DNA from: Desulfobulbaceae bacterium
Lineage (GTDB): Bacteria > Desulfobacterota > Desulfobulbia > Desulfobulbales > Desulfobulbaceae
Assembly (NCBI GenBank): GCA_023544645.1
Contig: JAMJFO010000023.1
Coordinates: forward strand, 1-49,150
Reading direction: 5' to 3'
Length of the DNA stretch: 49,150 nucleotides
The notes beneath the pieces were generated by a model. That model made no database searches and had not been told where the DNA came from. It saw only the letters and a program-made list of their open reading frames with translations. Of this stretch, positions 20,858 to 27,383 are shown one piece after another. Position 1 is the first letter of the stretch, and every line of letters begins with the position of its first letter. Both the position numbers and the translations under genes were made by a program.

Positions 20858-20874
20858 TTGATAACCATTATCAA
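20858..20874. promoter_or_regulatory. Fur-type operator
   Basis: TTGATAACCATTATCAA: two perfect 7-bp arms around CCA, close to the GATAAT-type hexamers of Fur boxes. It overlaps a possible -10 (TATTGA, 20856-20861) lying 17 nt after TTGCAC (20833-20838), so repressor binding would block the gene at 20897. Confidence 0.6.
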
Positions 20875-20896: not shown

Positions 20897-21340
20897 ATGT
20901 GTATTGATGTGCGAAAAACGTGTGAATGCGGCAAACAAACCGTGCAGTTTCACCTGCGTGACAACATCATGAGCCACGAAGTGGTGGTAGCGCTCCACTG
21001 CCCCGATTGCGCAGAAAAAACTGAGCTCAATGATGCAACCATGATCAATGATAACAACTGGATCATCGAATACGATATGGAGCTGGCTCGGTTCCTGGCC
21101 GCGGCAAAACTGCAGATCCCTCCGGATATGGTGGACCCGGCCTATGTGTTTGACACCGGCTATGCTACCTGGCAGGAAATGTACCCCGGCGAACAGAAGG
21201 ATATCCTTGAAGAGCGCAAAGGGATCATGGAACTGCTCAAGACCGATTCAACCGAATATCTGAAGCGGATCAACAGCTGGAATATAGCCCGAGTCGAACG
21301 GCTGAAGGCCGATGGCTGGCGCAAGGCACAGAATTGCTGA
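20897..21340 (+). CDS. Uncharacterised protein with Cys motifs, Fur-box controlled
   Basis: A 147-residue soluble protein of unrecognised family. Near the N-terminus it has CIDVRKTCECGK and later CPDC, four or five cysteines that could form a zinc or iron site; the C-terminal half is helical and charged (ILEERKGIMELL, YLKRINSWNIARVERLKADGW). The ATG at 20897 has AAAGGA 8 nt upstream, and the longer frame from 20852 would run through the operator. The Fur-like box in its promoter suggests a role under iron or peroxide control. Confidence 0.75.
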   Translation: MCIDVRKTCECGKQTVQFHLRDNIMSHEVVVALHCPDCAEKTELNDATMINDNNWIIEYDMELARFLAAAKLQIPPDMVDPAYVFDTGYATWQEMYPGEQKDILEERKGIMELLKTDSTEYLKRINSWNIARVERLKADGWRKAQNC

Positions 21341-22534: not shown

Positions 22535-22750
22535 ACACAGGTCCGGGGGAATCCTGCCTGGACGCCCCCAGGAAAGAGTGTTTTCCGGTTTTTCCCTTTG
22601 TTGTTGGCCTTTACAGGCAATGTTGACAACAATAATCTGCTCCGCAAATTGCAGAATTTCGCCAACCGCGAGAAACACAGGCGGCCCGCTGGTCACGAGG
22701 CATTACCACTCACAAAGAGCACCAAAAAATACTCTTTAACTCACCTGTAT

Positions 22751-22778
22751 GGGTCGGCAGAGATACCGGCCCTTTTTT
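22751..22778 (+). terminator. Rho-independent terminator
   Basis: Stem gggtcgg/ccggccc (22751-22757 and 22766-22772, one G-T pair) with an 8-nt loop and six T (22773-22778). It lies 216 nt after pal, so it ends either the long pal 3'UTR or an unrecognised small RNA. Confidence 0.75.
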
Positions 22779-22929
22779 ATCCTGTCCATAGCCCCTTGCA
22801 GTGCAATCCCCTTCTCAGGCAATACTGCTCCCCCCGACACATTCCCTCTCAATGCCGGACTATACACCCCCTGTTTTTCAAGTTATCCATCAGGTTAAAA
22901 AGAGAAAATCAAGGAAGAGACTTTTCGGC

Positions 22930-22957
22930 TTGACATGATAATGATTATCAATTACAT
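22930..22957 (+). promoter_or_regulatory. perR promoter with embedded Fur/PerR operator
   Basis: TTGACA (22930-22935) and TTACAT (22952-22957) are 16 nt apart. The perfect 15-bp palindrome TGATAATGATTATCA (22936-22950) fills the spacer exactly, so repressor and RNA polymerase would compete. It is the best Fur/PerR-type box in the window and implies autoregulation of the oxidant-defence operon. Confidence 0.8.
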
Positions 22958-23000
22958 TCACGCACAAAATGTGGATGGTTATTATTATCAGGTTTGCAAT

Positions 23001-23636
23001 ATGCTTCGAATGACCCAACAGCGCGAAATTATCCTCGAAGAGTTGAAAAAATTCGCAGGACACCCCACTGCAGATGAACTCTTTGATGAAGTTAAGAAAC
23101 GACTCAGCCATGTCAGCCTGGCTACGGTTTACCGTAACCTGGAAATCCTCTCCGGAGCGGGACTGATTTCAAAAATTGAGATAAGCGGGCGACAGAAACG
23201 ATTTGACAGTGATCTCCAGCAGCACACCCATGTGTACTGCCTCAGCTGCCATAGGGTTGACAACATAGAACTGCAGTCAAAGTCATCCATTGACTTCAAA
23301 GCGAAAGATCACCAAGGTTATAGAATTGATGGTTACAGGATCGAATTCAAGGGTTTTTGCCCGGATTGTTTGACTAAAACGGATAATAAAGGAGGTAAAT
23401 CAATGGGATGTAAAAAATGCGGCACATCCGGACTCAGCGAACCACAGCGTAAAGTTCTTGAGGCGCTGGCCAAATCCAAGGAACCCTGCGCAGGCAAGGA
23501 TATCGCTTTGGTCGCCGGCATGGAGGCGAAACAAGTGAGCTGCCAGATAACGGCCTTGAAAAAGAAGGGGTATGTGGCAAGCCCCATACGTTGTAAATAC
23601 GAAATAACCCGGGACGGACAAAAAGCCTTGGCGTAA
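23001..23636 (+). CDS. PerR-like Fur-family regulator continuous with a Cys-rich winged-helix domain
   Basis: 211 residues in one open frame. Residues 1-130 are a Fur-family repressor: MTQQREIILEEL, the DNA-binding HVSLATVYRNLEIL, KRFDSDLQQHTHVYC (regulatory metal ligands, with the Asp of PerR) and two zinc CxxC pairs (CLSC, CPDC). Such proteins normally end here. Instead the frame runs without a stop into MGCKKCGTSGLSEPQ..., a 77-residue domain with five Cys and a winged-helix look (VSCQITALKKKGYVASPIRCKYEIT). A consensus AAAGGAGGT sits 6 nt before the in-frame ATG at 23403, so the second part can also be made separately. Start 23001 is chosen because the promoter lies at 22930-22957. It heads the rubrerythrin cluster (12 bp to rbr). 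Confidence 0.88.
   Translation: MLRMTQQREIILEELKKFAGHPTADELFDEVKKRLSHVSLATVYRNLEILSGAGLISKIEISGRQKRFDSDLQQHTHVYCLSCHRVDNIELQSKSSIDFKAKDHQGYRIDGYRIEFKGFCPDCLTKTDNKGGKSMGCKKCGTSGLSEPQRKVLEALAKSKEPCAGKDIALVAGMEAKQVSCQITALKKKGYVASPIRCKYEITRDGQKALA
23388..23405 (+). promoter_or_regulatory. Internal ribosome binding site and start inside perR fusion
   Basis: AAAGGAGGT at 23388-23396 and ATG at 23403, 6 nt apart and in frame with the Fur-family domain. Stronger than the initiation site of the full-length protein. Initiation here would give a 77-residue protein with an N-terminal CKKC motif. Confidence 0.7.
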
Positions 23637-23648
23637 AGGGAGGGAATC

Positions 23649-24224
23649 ATGGTGCAGCTTATTGGATCACAGACGGAAAAAAACATACTGACCGCCTTTG
23701 CAGGTGAATCACAGGCCCGCAACCGGTACACATATTTTGCCAAACAGGCGAAAAAAGAAGGCTTGGTCCAGGTCTCGCAGATATTTGAACGAACTGCGGA
23801 CCAGGAAAAAGAGCATGCCAAGCGGTTGTTCAAATTTCTCCAGGGCGGTGAAGTCGAGGTTGTGGCGAGTTTTCCCTCAGGGGTCATCGGCAACACCCTG
23901 CAGAATCTCGAAGCCGCGGCGGCAGGCGAAAATTATGAATACAGCGAAATGTACCCGGAATTTGCCAATATTGCGATGAAAGAAGGTTTCGATGATATAG
24001 CTTCGGCCTTCACCTCCATTGCGGTGGCGGAAAAACAGCATGAAAAACAGTATCGCGACTTCATTGATAATCTCGCGTCCGGCAGGGTCTTCAAACGCGA
24101 TGACTCCGTCGTGTGGTACTGCGCCAACTGCGGTTATCTCCACGAGGGAACAGATGCCCCGGAAAAGTGCCCGGCCTGCGACCATGCCCGGGCGTATTTC
24201 CAGCTGCTCGGCGAAAACTGGTAA
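23649..24224 (+). CDS. rbr: Rubrerythrin
   Basis: Cytoplasmic peroxidase that reduces H2O2 with electrons from rubredoxin. The 191-residue protein has an N-terminal ferritin-like diiron domain (AGESQARNRY, DQEKEHAKR, YSEMYPEFA, AEKQHEKQYRDF give the Glu/His ligands) and a C-terminal rubredoxin-like Fe(Cys)4 domain (CANCGY and CPACDHARAYF). GGGAGG precedes the ATG. It sits 12 bp after the PerR-like gene, so it is in the same transcript. Confidence 0.96.
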   Translation: MVQLIGSQTEKNILTAFAGESQARNRYTYFAKQAKKEGLVQVSQIFERTADQEKEHAKRLFKFLQGGEVEVVASFPSGVIGNTLQNLEAAAAGENYEYSEMYPEFANIAMKEGFDDIASAFTSIAVAEKQHEKQYRDFIDNLASGRVFKRDDSVVWYCANCGYLHEGTDAPEKCPACDHARAYFQLLGENW

Positions 24225-24292
24225 ATATACATCGGCAAAGGCCGTACACGCTGCTGCCTGGAAAAAAATACTTTTATCATAAGGACGTTCAC

Positions 24293-24886
24293 ATGAGTAC
24301 ACACGTTACCAAGCCGGCCCCTGGTTTTACTGCTGTGGCAGTTATGAGTGACAACACGTTTAATGAAAATTTTTCTCTTTCCGATTACCGGGGAAAATAC
24401 GTTGTCCTGTTCTTTTATCCGCTGGATTTCACCTTTGTCTGTCCTTCGGAAATAATTGCCTTTGACAAGGCCATGGACCGTTTCCAGGCAAAAAACTGCC
24501 AGGTAATCGGTGTTTCCATTGATTCGCAGTTCACGCACCTGGCCTGGAAAAACACCCCGGTGAACGAGGGGGGCATCGGCAAAATCAGCTACCCGCTTGT
24601 GGCCGATCTGGACAAAAAAATATCCCGACAGTACGGCGTACTCCTCCCCGAAGGTATTGCCCTGCGCGGCACCTTTTTGATCGATAAAGAGGGAATTATC
24701 CGCCATGCGGTGCTCAACGACCTTCCCCTGGGCCGCAGCGTGGCAGAAACACTGCGGATGGTCGATGCGCTGCAGTTCCACGAACAGCACGGCGATGTAT
24801 GTCCGGCCAACTGGAAGGAGGGCGATGAAGGCATGAAACCCACTGCCGACGGAGTGGCCGATTATCTTTCCAAACACTCTGCTTAA
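24293..24886 (+). CDS. 2-Cys peroxiredoxin (AhpC/Prx1 type)
   Basis: Thiol peroxidase of 197 residues. The peroxidatic Cys lies in DFTFVCPSE and the resolving Cys in HGDVCPANW, so it is a typical 2-Cys dimer enzyme. LFFYPLDFTF and RGTFLIDKEG are further family marks. ATG 24293 has AAGGA 8 nt upstream; the open frame extends leftwards into rbr in another frame. No dedicated AhpF or thioredoxin reductase gene adjoins it, so the reductant may be thioredoxin or rubredoxin from elsewhere. Confidence 0.94.
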   Translation: MSTHVTKPAPGFTAVAVMSDNTFNENFSLSDYRGKYVVLFFYPLDFTFVCPSEIIAFDKAMDRFQAKNCQVIGVSIDSQFTHLAWKNTPVNEGGIGKISYPLVADLDKKISRQYGVLLPEGIALRGTFLIDKEGIIRHAVLNDLPLGRSVAETLRMVDALQFHEQHGDVCPANWKEGDEGMKPTADGVADYLSKHSA

Positions 24887-24988
24887 TCTTTCAGCTTGAA
24901 TTTGTTATACTAATATGAAAAAGTTACATTTGTTTTTTGTTTGAAGCTTTCAATTCACGTAGAGCACTTTCAACAAAAGGAGAAAAAC

Positions 24989-25363
24989 ATGACCGAAAAA
25001 AATCAAGTTTACAAATGCCCCCTCTGCGGTAACATCGTAGAAGTTCTGCATACCGGCGCCGGTGAACTGGTCTGCTGTGGCCAGCCCATGGACCTGATGA
25101 AAGAAAACACCGTTGATGCCGCCAAGGAAAAACATGTTCCGGTCGTGGAAAAGACGGATAACGGCTATAAGGTAAAAATCGGCAGTGTTCCCCACCCCAT
25201 GGACGAAAAGCACTGGATCGAGTGGATTGAATTGCACGCCGGCGGCAGGGTGTATCGGCAGGACCTCGCTCCGGGCAAAGACCCTGAGGCTGTTTTCTGT
25301 GTTGATGCTCCTGATGTCACTGCCCGTGCCTACTGCAACCTGCACGGCTTGTGGAAAAGCTGA
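24989..25363 (+). CDS. dfx: Desulfoferrodoxin (class I superoxide reductase)
   Basis: Reduces superoxide to hydrogen peroxide in anaerobes. The 124-residue protein has the desulforedoxin-like centre I (YKCPLCGN with VCCGQPM) and the superoxide-reductase centre II ligands ([25 protein letters not shown]). AAAGGAGA stands just before ATG 24989. A possible -10 TATACT near 24906 suggests an extra promoter between the peroxiredoxin gene and this one. Confidence 0.96.
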
Positions 25364-25473
25364 TCCTGCGGACAGGTTCGTGACGTTGACGGACCGGCAG
25401 GAATCCAATTCTTCCGGTCCGTTGAATTATTGCACCAGGAAATCCAACAATCAATATCCCACAAGGTTCACCC

Positions 25474-25632
25474 ATGAAAAAATATAAATGTCTCATTTGC
25501 GGCTACGAATATGACCCGGAAGCAGGTGATCCGGCAAACGGGGTTGCCCCGGGAACATCCTTCGACGATCTCCCTGACGACTGGACCTGTCCTGTTTGCG
25601 GCGCCGGCAAGGAAGAGTTCGAGGAAATTTAA
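25474..25632 (+). CDS. Rubredoxin
   Basis: A 52-residue Fe(Cys)4 electron carrier: [17 protein letters not shown] near the N-terminus and [17 protein letters not shown] at the end, normal spacing and length. It would supply electrons to desulfoferrodoxin, rubrerythrin and the flavo-diiron protein encoded on either side. Weak AAGG 9 nt before the ATG; 110 bp after dfx. Confidence 0.95.
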
Positions 25633-25787
25633 CGACCTCCCCCTCCCCGTCTACTTTTTGGGTTTGATACCGGGAACAGGATGATTCATCAGCCCCTGTG
25701 ATGCATTCCTGCTTCGGGAACAGGCTTGGGACTGAAAACGCACGGCCTTTCATCATTAATGCGCCATAACCACACAGAGAACAGCAA

Positions 25788-26135
25788 ATGACCAAAGTTG
25801 TTTTTTTTGTTTTCCGTTCCGACCCAACGTGCTTCATGCACGCGCTCCTCAATGCGCTCGATCTCGAGGAAAAAGGAATGTGGGGTGAAATCGTCTTTGA
25901 GGGGGAGTCAGCCCAGCTAATTCCGCTCATCTCCCAACCGGGTCATTTTTTATACTCCCGCTATATCCAGGCCAAAAACAGAGGCCTTTTTTACGGGGTA
26001 TGTCAATTCTGTGCCGGAAAAATAGGGATAACAAATTACGCGGAATCCGAACATATTCCGCTTATCGGCGACATGTCCGGCCACCCGTCAATGTCTGAGT
26101 TTATCAAACAGGGATACACAATAATCACCCTGTAA
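25788..26135 (+). CDS. DsrE-family-like small protein
   Basis: A 115-residue cytoplasmic protein whose layout (KVVFFVFRSDPTCFMHALLNAL..., then YGVCQFCAGKIGI near residue 70 and a C-terminal GYTIITL) fits the DsrE/DsrF/YchN fold. The CQFC motif could carry a persulfide or a metal. It lies 27 bp before the flavo-diiron gene and is presumably cotranscribed, which ties sulfur handling to oxygen defence. The precise function is unknown. Confidence 0.72.
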   Translation: MTKVVFFVFRSDPTCFMHALLNALDLEEKGMWGEIVFEGESAQLIPLISQPGHFLYSRYIQAKNRGLFYGVCQFCAGKIGITNYAESEHIPLIGDMSGHPSMSEFIKQGYTIITL

Positions 26136-26162
26136 AGTTTATATACAAGGAGGAATAACAAA

Positions 26163-27383
26163 GTGAAACCCATTGAGATTGCCAAGAATATATATTGGGT
26201 CGGGGCGATTGACTGGACCATTCGTGATTTTCACGGCTATTCCACCAATCGCGGCACAACCTACAATGCCTATCTGATCTTCGATGAGAAGATCACCCTG
26301 ATCGACTGCGTCAAAAAATCTCACAAAAGCGACCTTCTTCATCGGATCCGCAATATAATCGATCCCGAAAAAATCGATTATATCGTGGTCAACCATGTTG
26401 AAATGGATCATTCCGGCAGCCTACCGGATATGATTGAGGTCATTAAACCCGAAAAAGTCTTCTGTTCCAAAATGGGCCATAAAGCCATTCTCAAGCATTT
26501 CCACCAGGATGACTGGCCTTTCCATATTGTGACCCCGGGCGAGGAACTGTCCCTGGGTGAAAAAACCCTGTCATTCATTGAAACCAGAATGCTGCACTGG
26601 CCGGACTCCATGTTCACCTATGTCAAGGAGGACCAGATCCTGTTCTCCAGTGATGCCTTTGGTCAGCATCTGGCAACCAGTGAACGGTTTGACGAAGAAG
26701 TCAATCAGGATGTGCTCATGTATGAGTGCGCCAAGTATTATGCCAATATCCTGACCCTCTATTCACCGCTGGTCAAAAAACTCATTGCCAAAGTACAGGA
26801 AATGAACCTGCCGATCAAGATGATAGCGCCGGACCATGGCGTTGTCTGGCGGACCAATCCGGGTAAAATCCTTGAGGCCTATTCACGCTGGTGTGTGCAC
26901 GAAGGAAAGGGTAATGCCCTGATCATCTACGATACCATGTGGCATTCCACGGAAATAATGGCCAAGGCGGTTGCCGACGGTCTGCAGGATGAGGGAATCG
27001 GCTACAAACTGATCGATCTGCGGGTCAATCATCGTAGCGATGTCATGACCGATGTGCTCGAGGCCAGCGCCATTGTTCTGGGCTGTCCGACGCTGAACAA
27101 CGGCATGCTGCCACGGATGGCCGGTTTCCTCATGTATATGCGCGGCCTGCGGCCAACCAACAAAATCGGCGCCGCATTCGGCTCCTACGGGTGGTCCGGC
27201 GAAGCGGTCAAGCTCATGAACGAAGCCATGAAAGAGATGAAGTTCACCATCTGTCATGAAGGCCAGCGGGTACAGTATGTGCCCGAGCATCCGGAACTCA
27301 GCGAATGTGTGGAACTCGGCCGGACAGTGGGCCGAAATCTCAACGATTTCCTGGCCGGCAAGGAGATCAAGTCCGTGATCTGA
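26163..27383 (+). CDS. Flavo-diiron protein (rubredoxin:oxygen oxidoreductase, class A)
   Basis: Reduces O2 to water (or NO to N2O) with electrons from rubredoxin. The 406 residues form a metallo-beta-lactamase-like diiron domain (HVEMDH near 80, LHWPDS, SSDAFG, PDHGVVW give the ligands) and a flavodoxin domain from about 255 (FMN loop YDTMWHSTE, then SYGWSGE). No rubredoxin tail, hence class A. GTG start with AGGAGG 8 nt upstream. Last gene of the oxidant-defence cluster. Confidence 0.95.
   Translation: MKPIEIAKNIYWVGAIDWTIRDFHGYSTNRGTTYNAYLIFDEKITLIDCVKKSHKSDLLHRIRNIIDPEKIDYIVVNHVEMDHSGSLPDMIEVIKPEKVFCSKMGHKAILKHFHQDDWPFHIVTPGEELSLGEKTLSFIETRMLHWPDSMFTYVKEDQILFSSDAFGQHLATSERFDEEVNQDVLMYECAKYYANILTLYSPLVKKLIAKVQEMNLPIKMIAPDHGVVWRTNPGKILEAYSRWCVHEGKGNALIIYDTMWHSTEIMAKAVADGLQDEGIGYKLIDLRVNHRSDVMTDVLEASAIVLGCPTLNNGMLPRMAGFLMYMRGLRPTNKIGAAFGSYGWSGEAVKLMNEAMKEMKFTICHEGQRVQYVPEHPELSECVELGRTVGRNLNDFLAGKEIKSVI

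Follow-up and report, generated by a model that had tools for sequence, protein, structure and literature searches.

A single reading frame in the window, the stretch of 49,150 nucleotides of Desulfobulbaceae DNA analysed here, joins a PerR-type repressor to a small Cys-rich winged-helix domain. Judged from sequence comparison, this one gene probably gives two proteins: the fused PerR and, by way of a second start codon kept inside the frame when the separating stop was lost, the small regulator in free form. The initial annotation had described a frame that runs from PerR into a second domain with no stop in between, and 211 codons are indeed open, with a loose linker between the two parts (Table 1). 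Its account of the second domain as a 77-residue winged helix with five cysteines and CKKC at its start also holds (Cys 3, 6, 29, 47 and 64). In the AF2 model of the whole fusion, whose Fur dimer part is poorly modelled (mean pLDDT 73.4, pTM 0.42), the linker is predicted to be disordered, with pLDDT below 50 for residues 129-143.

Table 1. Features of the perR locus, in window positions
Feature	Positions	Strand	Evidence
Sigma-70-like promoter, TTGACA-17-TACATT	22930..22958	+	10/12 matches; best promoter-like site of 22700-26200
Candidate PerR/Fur operator, perfect 7-1-7 palindrome TGATAATGATTATCA	22936..22950	.	0 mismatches; between -35 and -10
Fused perR-winged helix-turn-helix reading frame	23001..23636	+	211 aa + stop, no interruption
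PerR/Fur part, residues 1-126	23001..23378	+	H21, D69, H75, H77; C80, C83, C120, C123
Linker codons, fast evolving, with internal ribosome-binding site	23379..23402	+	alignment of relatives; AF2
Internal Shine-Dalgarno AAAGGAGGT	23388..23396	+	SD energy -12.9 kcal/mol; GGAG core conserved in relatives
Internal in-frame ATG	23403..23405	+	six bases after AAAGGAGGT; start kept in most fused relatives
77-residue winged-helix domain/predicted free small regulator, residues 135-211	23403..23636	+	AF2, structure matches, stand-alone homologues
Rubrerythrin, next gene	23649..24224	+	NF045767, 288.5 bits vs cut-off 200
Peroxiredoxin (AhpC/TSA family)	24293..24886	+	PF00578, E 1.1e-39
Desulfoferrodoxin	24989..25363	+	TIGR00320, 219.3 bits vs cut-off 146.9

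Fused and separate genes among relatives

How widespread is the fusion? The small-domain alignment (A1) matches 149 of 218 genomes in the class and, among 297 drawn from the phylum, 59 (E <= 0.001 in both), many of the latter matches being weak and possibly generic winged helix-turn-helix (wHTH) proteins. Collapsing identical domain DNA reduces 211 small-domain matches to 167 unique loci: the domain is fused to PerR in 76, forms a separate gene behind perR in 59 and stands with no perR found nearby in 32 (three of which have less than 500 bases of upstream sequence or an edge). A locus is called split when a perR ends no more than about 260 bases before the domain. Looking in perR homologues for a stop between the domains, as the initial annotation had suggested, returns both states. 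The stand-alone homologues that it proposed to search for also exist, and at least one of rubrerythrin (rbr), peroxiredoxin (prx) and desulfoferrodoxin (dfx) lies downstream, within the available DNA, at 25 of the 59 split loci and at 73 of the 76 fused ones. Some stand-alone copies are found in a different gene context (five loci viewed). At two of these, L200 and L092, the small winged helix has on one side what we take to be a HybB/QrcD-like membrane protein and on the other a small Cys protein, behind which a cysteine-synthase-like gene presumably follows.

The window's own family, f1, has 50 fused and 2 split loci, and perR is found without the small domain in two f1 genomes (L135, L195). 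Family f12 (71 loci) has 24 fused, 41 split and 6 loci without perR; both states, fused and split, are present in its genus g33. The two genes of a split pair sit close together: among 57 pairs measured, a four-base overlap is seen in 19, and most of the rest are no more than about 70 bases apart, up to a maximum of 189, five strongly negative spacings stemming from doubtful start choices. On a tree of PerR and small-domain columns, with the linker omitted and the 32 loci without perR left out, the fused and split states need at least 14 changes, gain and loss being counted alike with no distinction of direction. Seven of these are forced by well-supported branches, and shuffled state labels need about 44 changes on the same tree. 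Some changes are minimal. The stop codon of L048 is CAA in the near relative L052, a one-base difference in almost identical DNA; L143 and L144 are out of frame, and the other six members of their group of eight are fused. The fusion in family f25 (L108, L109) looks independent. By these comparisons the fusion is not peculiar to this genome: it characterizes the window's family and sections of other families. One cultured relative with a fused gene is Desulfogranum japonicum (locus L036). The proposal of a gene pair that lost its separating stop codon fits well with this distribution, as adjacent separate genes and fused genes both occur, sometimes in near relatives, and the start signal of the second gene has usually been retained after fusion at the relatives' loci.

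The PerR part

Is the first part of the fusion a genuine PerR? The Pfam FUR model (PF01475) covers residues 2-116 with 94.4 bits against a cut-off of 23.1 (E 6.8e-27), and the nearest solved sequence is the peroxide operon regulator of B. subtilis (2fe3, E 7.4e-19). We take the regulatory metal ligands of PerR to be H37, D85, H91 and H93 (B. subtilis numbering); matching residues are present in the window and in 76, 74, 76 and 76 of the 76 fused rows, respectively. The Cys4 structural zinc site, made of two CxxC motifs, is complete in all 76 fused and all 59 split rows. Position 104, presumably Asp in a PerR, corresponds to residue 88 in the window (23262-23264) and is Asn, not Asp. This is the common state here, Asn being found in 67 of the 76 fused PerR proteins (Asp in the other 9) and in 42 of the 59 split ones; the preceding position 103 is Asp or Glu in 73 of 76 fused rows. 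The best NCBIfam PerR equivalog, NF052545, gives 103.6 bits against a cut-off of 180, and the protein is therefore called PerR-type rather than a certified PerR; peroxide sensing by this repressor is assumed. It resembles B. subtilis PerR in belonging to the Fur family, in its ligand-matching residues and Cys4 zinc site, in its position beside peroxide-defence genes and in the operator-like palindrome in its own promoter. It differs in the C-terminal winged helix and in the Asn that most members carry at position 104.

The small winged-helix domain

The AF2 model of the small domain alone is a winged helix (mean pLDDT 84.7, pTM 0.68). In Foldseek this model matches MarR entries with E values of 2.9e-4 to 9.3e-4, and VIA gives Z scores of up to 12.8 against MarR-type wHTH structures, so the fold is of the MarR type, which is common to other wHTH proteins as well; Rio2 and ZBP1 were also matched. 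Sequence models are less informative, and the attempt to name the domain by sequence was abandoned because every Pfam and NCBIfam model scored below its cut-off. The wHTH models seen below cut-off, at about residues 143-193, include TrmB, ArsR/HTH_5 and MarR_2, the last with 19.5 bits against a cut-off of 27, which falls short of MarR family membership. At 77 residues the domain is too short for the dimer helices of MarR. Its profile also matches PscE (PDB 7ueb chain E, E 1.4e-6) over positions 13-65, including the SPxRC motif, and the wider family may therefore include members without DNA binding. PscE is named as a reaction-centre subunit in the accessible part of PMC9529944, the tie to the 7ueb chain being one of name.

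Is this domain a second sensor? C64 is conserved in 164 of the 167 small domains. For C29 the figures are 70 of 76 among fused rows, 39 of 59 among split ones and 15 of 32 among the rest, and the position of C47 is Cys in 17 of the 22 rows of A1. A four-Cys metal site was considered and rejected, as C29 and C47 are not strictly kept and the number of N-terminal cysteines varies. The pattern, above all that of C64, hints at a redox or metal role of the Cys residues. The initial annotation had spoken of a two-sensor regulator; the two-domain fusion stands, and a second sensor is unproven, several of the cysteines not being strictly kept.

The internal start signal

The consensus Shine-Dalgarno (SD) sequence that had been noticed six nucleotides before an in-frame ATG at 23403 proves to be strong in the window and in most relatives. 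In the window, the internal ATG has an anti-SD pairing energy of -12.9 kcal/mol, compared with -3.2 kcal/mol for the perR ATG; an in-frame start codon with its own SD inside a longer frame is the arrangement of genes within genes. A linker ATG or GTG is found in 67 of the 76 fused genes, and in 59 of the 76 its SD energy is -7 kcal/mol or lower, a value reached by 29 of 75 perR starts and by 48 of 646 control ATGs (internal ATGs of rbr, prx, dfx and the remainder of the fused frames), 35 of these 48 falling in peroxiredoxin. The start with the best SD was taken on both sides, and for perR up to 15 codons and TTG were allowed, which favours perR. The SD is just as strong before the second genes of split loci (median -8.7 kcal/mol, 47 with -7 or lower, in 57 loci examined out of 59). 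RNA structure at the internal site is unremarkable (z -0.29), with no stable fold over the A-rich stretch. An internal promoter was considered and set aside, as a scan for sigma-70-type promoters gave no plus-strand site starting between 22958 and 24427.

Strong internal sites occur in 34 of 50 fused genes in f1, 24 of 24 in f12 and one of two in f25. In the window's own family the signal is thus absent or weak in 16 of 50 fused genes. Eight linker starts have an SD weaker than -7 kcal/mol (L011, L013, L015, L019, L091, L119, L121, L123). L109, of f25, has no ATG or GTG in its linker but a TTG with a strong SD, and the SD lies one codon further upstream in the f1 rows L005, L014, L017 and L018. 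A usable internal start is absent from the genera g14 (six rows: L029, L031, L126, L129-L131) and g9 (three rows: L123-L125), each row having one copy of the domain. The fused genes of g9 and g14 are natural 'fusion only' variants that have lost the internal start, and make a useful comparison.

Selection on the linker and alternative explanations

Is the signal kept for its own sake or for the protein that it encodes? The linker alignment holds 66 of the 76 fused rows (nine without a linker ATG or GTG were omitted together with L123, and L158 was shifted by one codon), and the GGAG core stands out in it. At codon -4 the third base has changed 3 times, and at the other nine linker codons 10-28 times, all change counts being parsimony minima on one quick tree in which rows are not independent events. 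Codon -4 encodes Gly in 53 of 66 rows, written GGA in 52 of these 53, whereas in the remainder of the fused frames GGA accounts for 194 of 840 Gly codons (Fisher p 4e-30, with rows that are not independent). Codon -3 has 26 amino-acid changes (mainly among E, D, G, V and A) but 6 first-base changes, compared with 12-25 first-base and 24-39 amino-acid changes at the non-core codons (-10 to -5, -2 and -1). Its amino acid is variable and its first base stable, and selection therefore seems to act on the RNA. The contrast is weaker within f1 alone, where the amino acid of codon -3 has changed 17 times and its first base 6 times (7-17 times at the non-core codons). In the alignment as a whole, and less clearly within f1, the start signal appears to be conserved beyond the constraint on the protein.

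The frame itself also seems to be maintained. Over the ten linker codons of f1, at least 314 base changes would be expected to have produced about 22 stops (22.4 in the 41 strict f1 rows with an internal start; 23.2 in a 42-row set, selected in part by NCBI label, that includes L051 of f12), yet only 2 of the 52 f1 loci are split. Linker stops thus look avoided in f1, which argues that the fusion has been kept and, in most cases, the internal start with it. A recent accidental read-through was ruled out, since f1 linker stops look avoided and the small domain is conserved.

Could the cell be making the fused protein only, with the internal start a relic left over from the former second gene, and the winged helix an extra domain of PerR? 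Such genes may well exist in g14 and g9, which carry the fusion with no usable internal start, and both the 16 f1 genes with a weak or absent signal and a fused frame that looks guarded against stops would suit this account. A relic should decay, however, and here the GGAG core and the ATG persist beside non-core codons as changeable as those described above, with a strong site in more than half of the f1 genes (34 of 50) against 48 of 646 control ATGs. For the window we consider a fusion-only gene unlikely. It is less likely still that the signal survives through frequent reversion to separate genes and not through use while fused. The 14 or more state changes on the gene tree would speak for such reversion, as would f12, where 41 of 71 loci are split and the signal is best kept (24 of 24). 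Family f1, by contrast, has just 2 split loci among 52, and the strong site is nevertheless found in those 34 fused genes; ribosomes would in any case probably use a strong SD and ATG placed in an A-rich stretch that no stable fold covers. The joining of two genes in the window by an assembly or sequencing error can be dismissed, although the separating stop of L048 is one base away from the fused L052, because at least 48 of 96 near genomes (the source genome counted in) share the full-length, stop-free fusion, some of them on single-contig assemblies (G010, G036, G050, G058).

Promoter, candidate operator and predicted operon

The perR gene has a promoter-like site upstream, the best of a scan that found 5 sites against 3.7 in shuffles. 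As a PerR/Fur-type palindrome lies there, flanked by the -35 and -10 elements, the PerR-type protein is most likely an autorepressor. Within 200 bp upstream of perR, a copy of the palindrome with up to four mismatches is present at 65 of the 75 fused loci tested, compared with 74 of 1500 mononucleotide shuffles, the best copy being off the promoter position in a number of these loci. Beyond the three peroxide-defence genes comes first a weak match to DsrE, below cut-off with E 0.012, and then a beta-lactamase-flavodoxin (flavodiiron-type) protein.

A model for one gene with two products

How might the two products work together? The reading that we prefer, one gene with a fused and a free product, would begin with a perR-small regulator pair that lost its separating stop, leaving the second ribosome-binding site and start codon inside the fused frame. 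If the SD strengths in the window are a guide, the weak perR start would give little fused repressor, in which PerR is tied by a floppy linker to the winged helix, and the strong internal start would give more of the free winged helix. PerR would most likely repress its own operon, that is, perR-winged helix, rubrerythrin and probably peroxiredoxin and desulfoferrodoxin, and peroxide would release this repression. By analogy with SpaO and AerR (see below), the free winged helix may modulate the fused form, either by binding to the tethered copy or by competing with it for shared DNA sites.

A more far-reaching version, the 'removable stop', is possible but doubtful. It supposes mixed complexes of fused PerR-winged helix and free winged helix, in which the winged helix is a second thiol or metal sensor and the ratio of the two forms is tuned in evolution. 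If it were true, the ratio could be shifted by small changes in the stop codon, the frame or the internal start, and relatives would display three modes: the pair as two genes, a single gene with both products, and the fusion alone. At the level of the DNA, close relatives do include separate genes, fusions with an internal start and fusions without one, which allows a direct test of the conditions that favour fusion and of the continued need for the free domain. Strict anaerobes rely on rubrerythrin-type peroxide defence and, to our knowledge, the tuning of PerR in them has been little studied. A single annotation as 'Fur family regulator' may hide a second protein.

Relation to known systems

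Internal initiation that frees a C-terminal domain is already known. In SpaO/SctQ of type III secretion, an internal start frees the C-terminal domain and the long and short forms bind each other, as described in the accessible part of PMC13059759; this is a structural export protein and not a regulator as here. AerR of Rhodobacter capsulatus is a regulator with an internal start and ribosome-binding site, and its isoforms have different effects (accessible part of PMC6199135), but its short form lacks only about 40 N-terminal residues and there is no second domain. RpnL/RpnS (PMC10327210) and Cas11b (PMC11899642) are, in the accessible parts of these sources, further cases in which part of a gene is translated separately by internal initiation; unlike the product of the window gene, they are defence proteins. 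Among the matches listed in a search of the open-licence literature, there was no report of internal initiation in PerR or of a PerR-wHTH fusion.

The operon as such has precedents. In the accessible part of PMC545781, delta-proteobacterial operons combine perR with rubrerythrin and roo, with self-regulation predicted, and that part mentions neither a second winged helix nor a perR fusion. The site predicted there for roo1-roo2 of Desulfotalea psychrophila has the core TGATAATCATTA in common with the palindrome of the window, and the predicted PerR sites of Desulfovibrio and Geobacter differ from it.

Similar sequences are found elsewhere in the source genome. TGATAATNATTATCA has two exact copies, one in the perR promoter and the other at G000:C61:48916-48930 (L216), where the neighbouring ORFs, on simple inspection, have no evident link to peroxide stress. 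Within the window, a second palindrome, TGATAACCATTATCA, with one mismatch, lies at 20859-20873. The ORF that begins 23 bases later (20897-21340) encodes a protein of 147 residues that contains Cys, has no family match above cut-off and is a candidate further member of the regulon.
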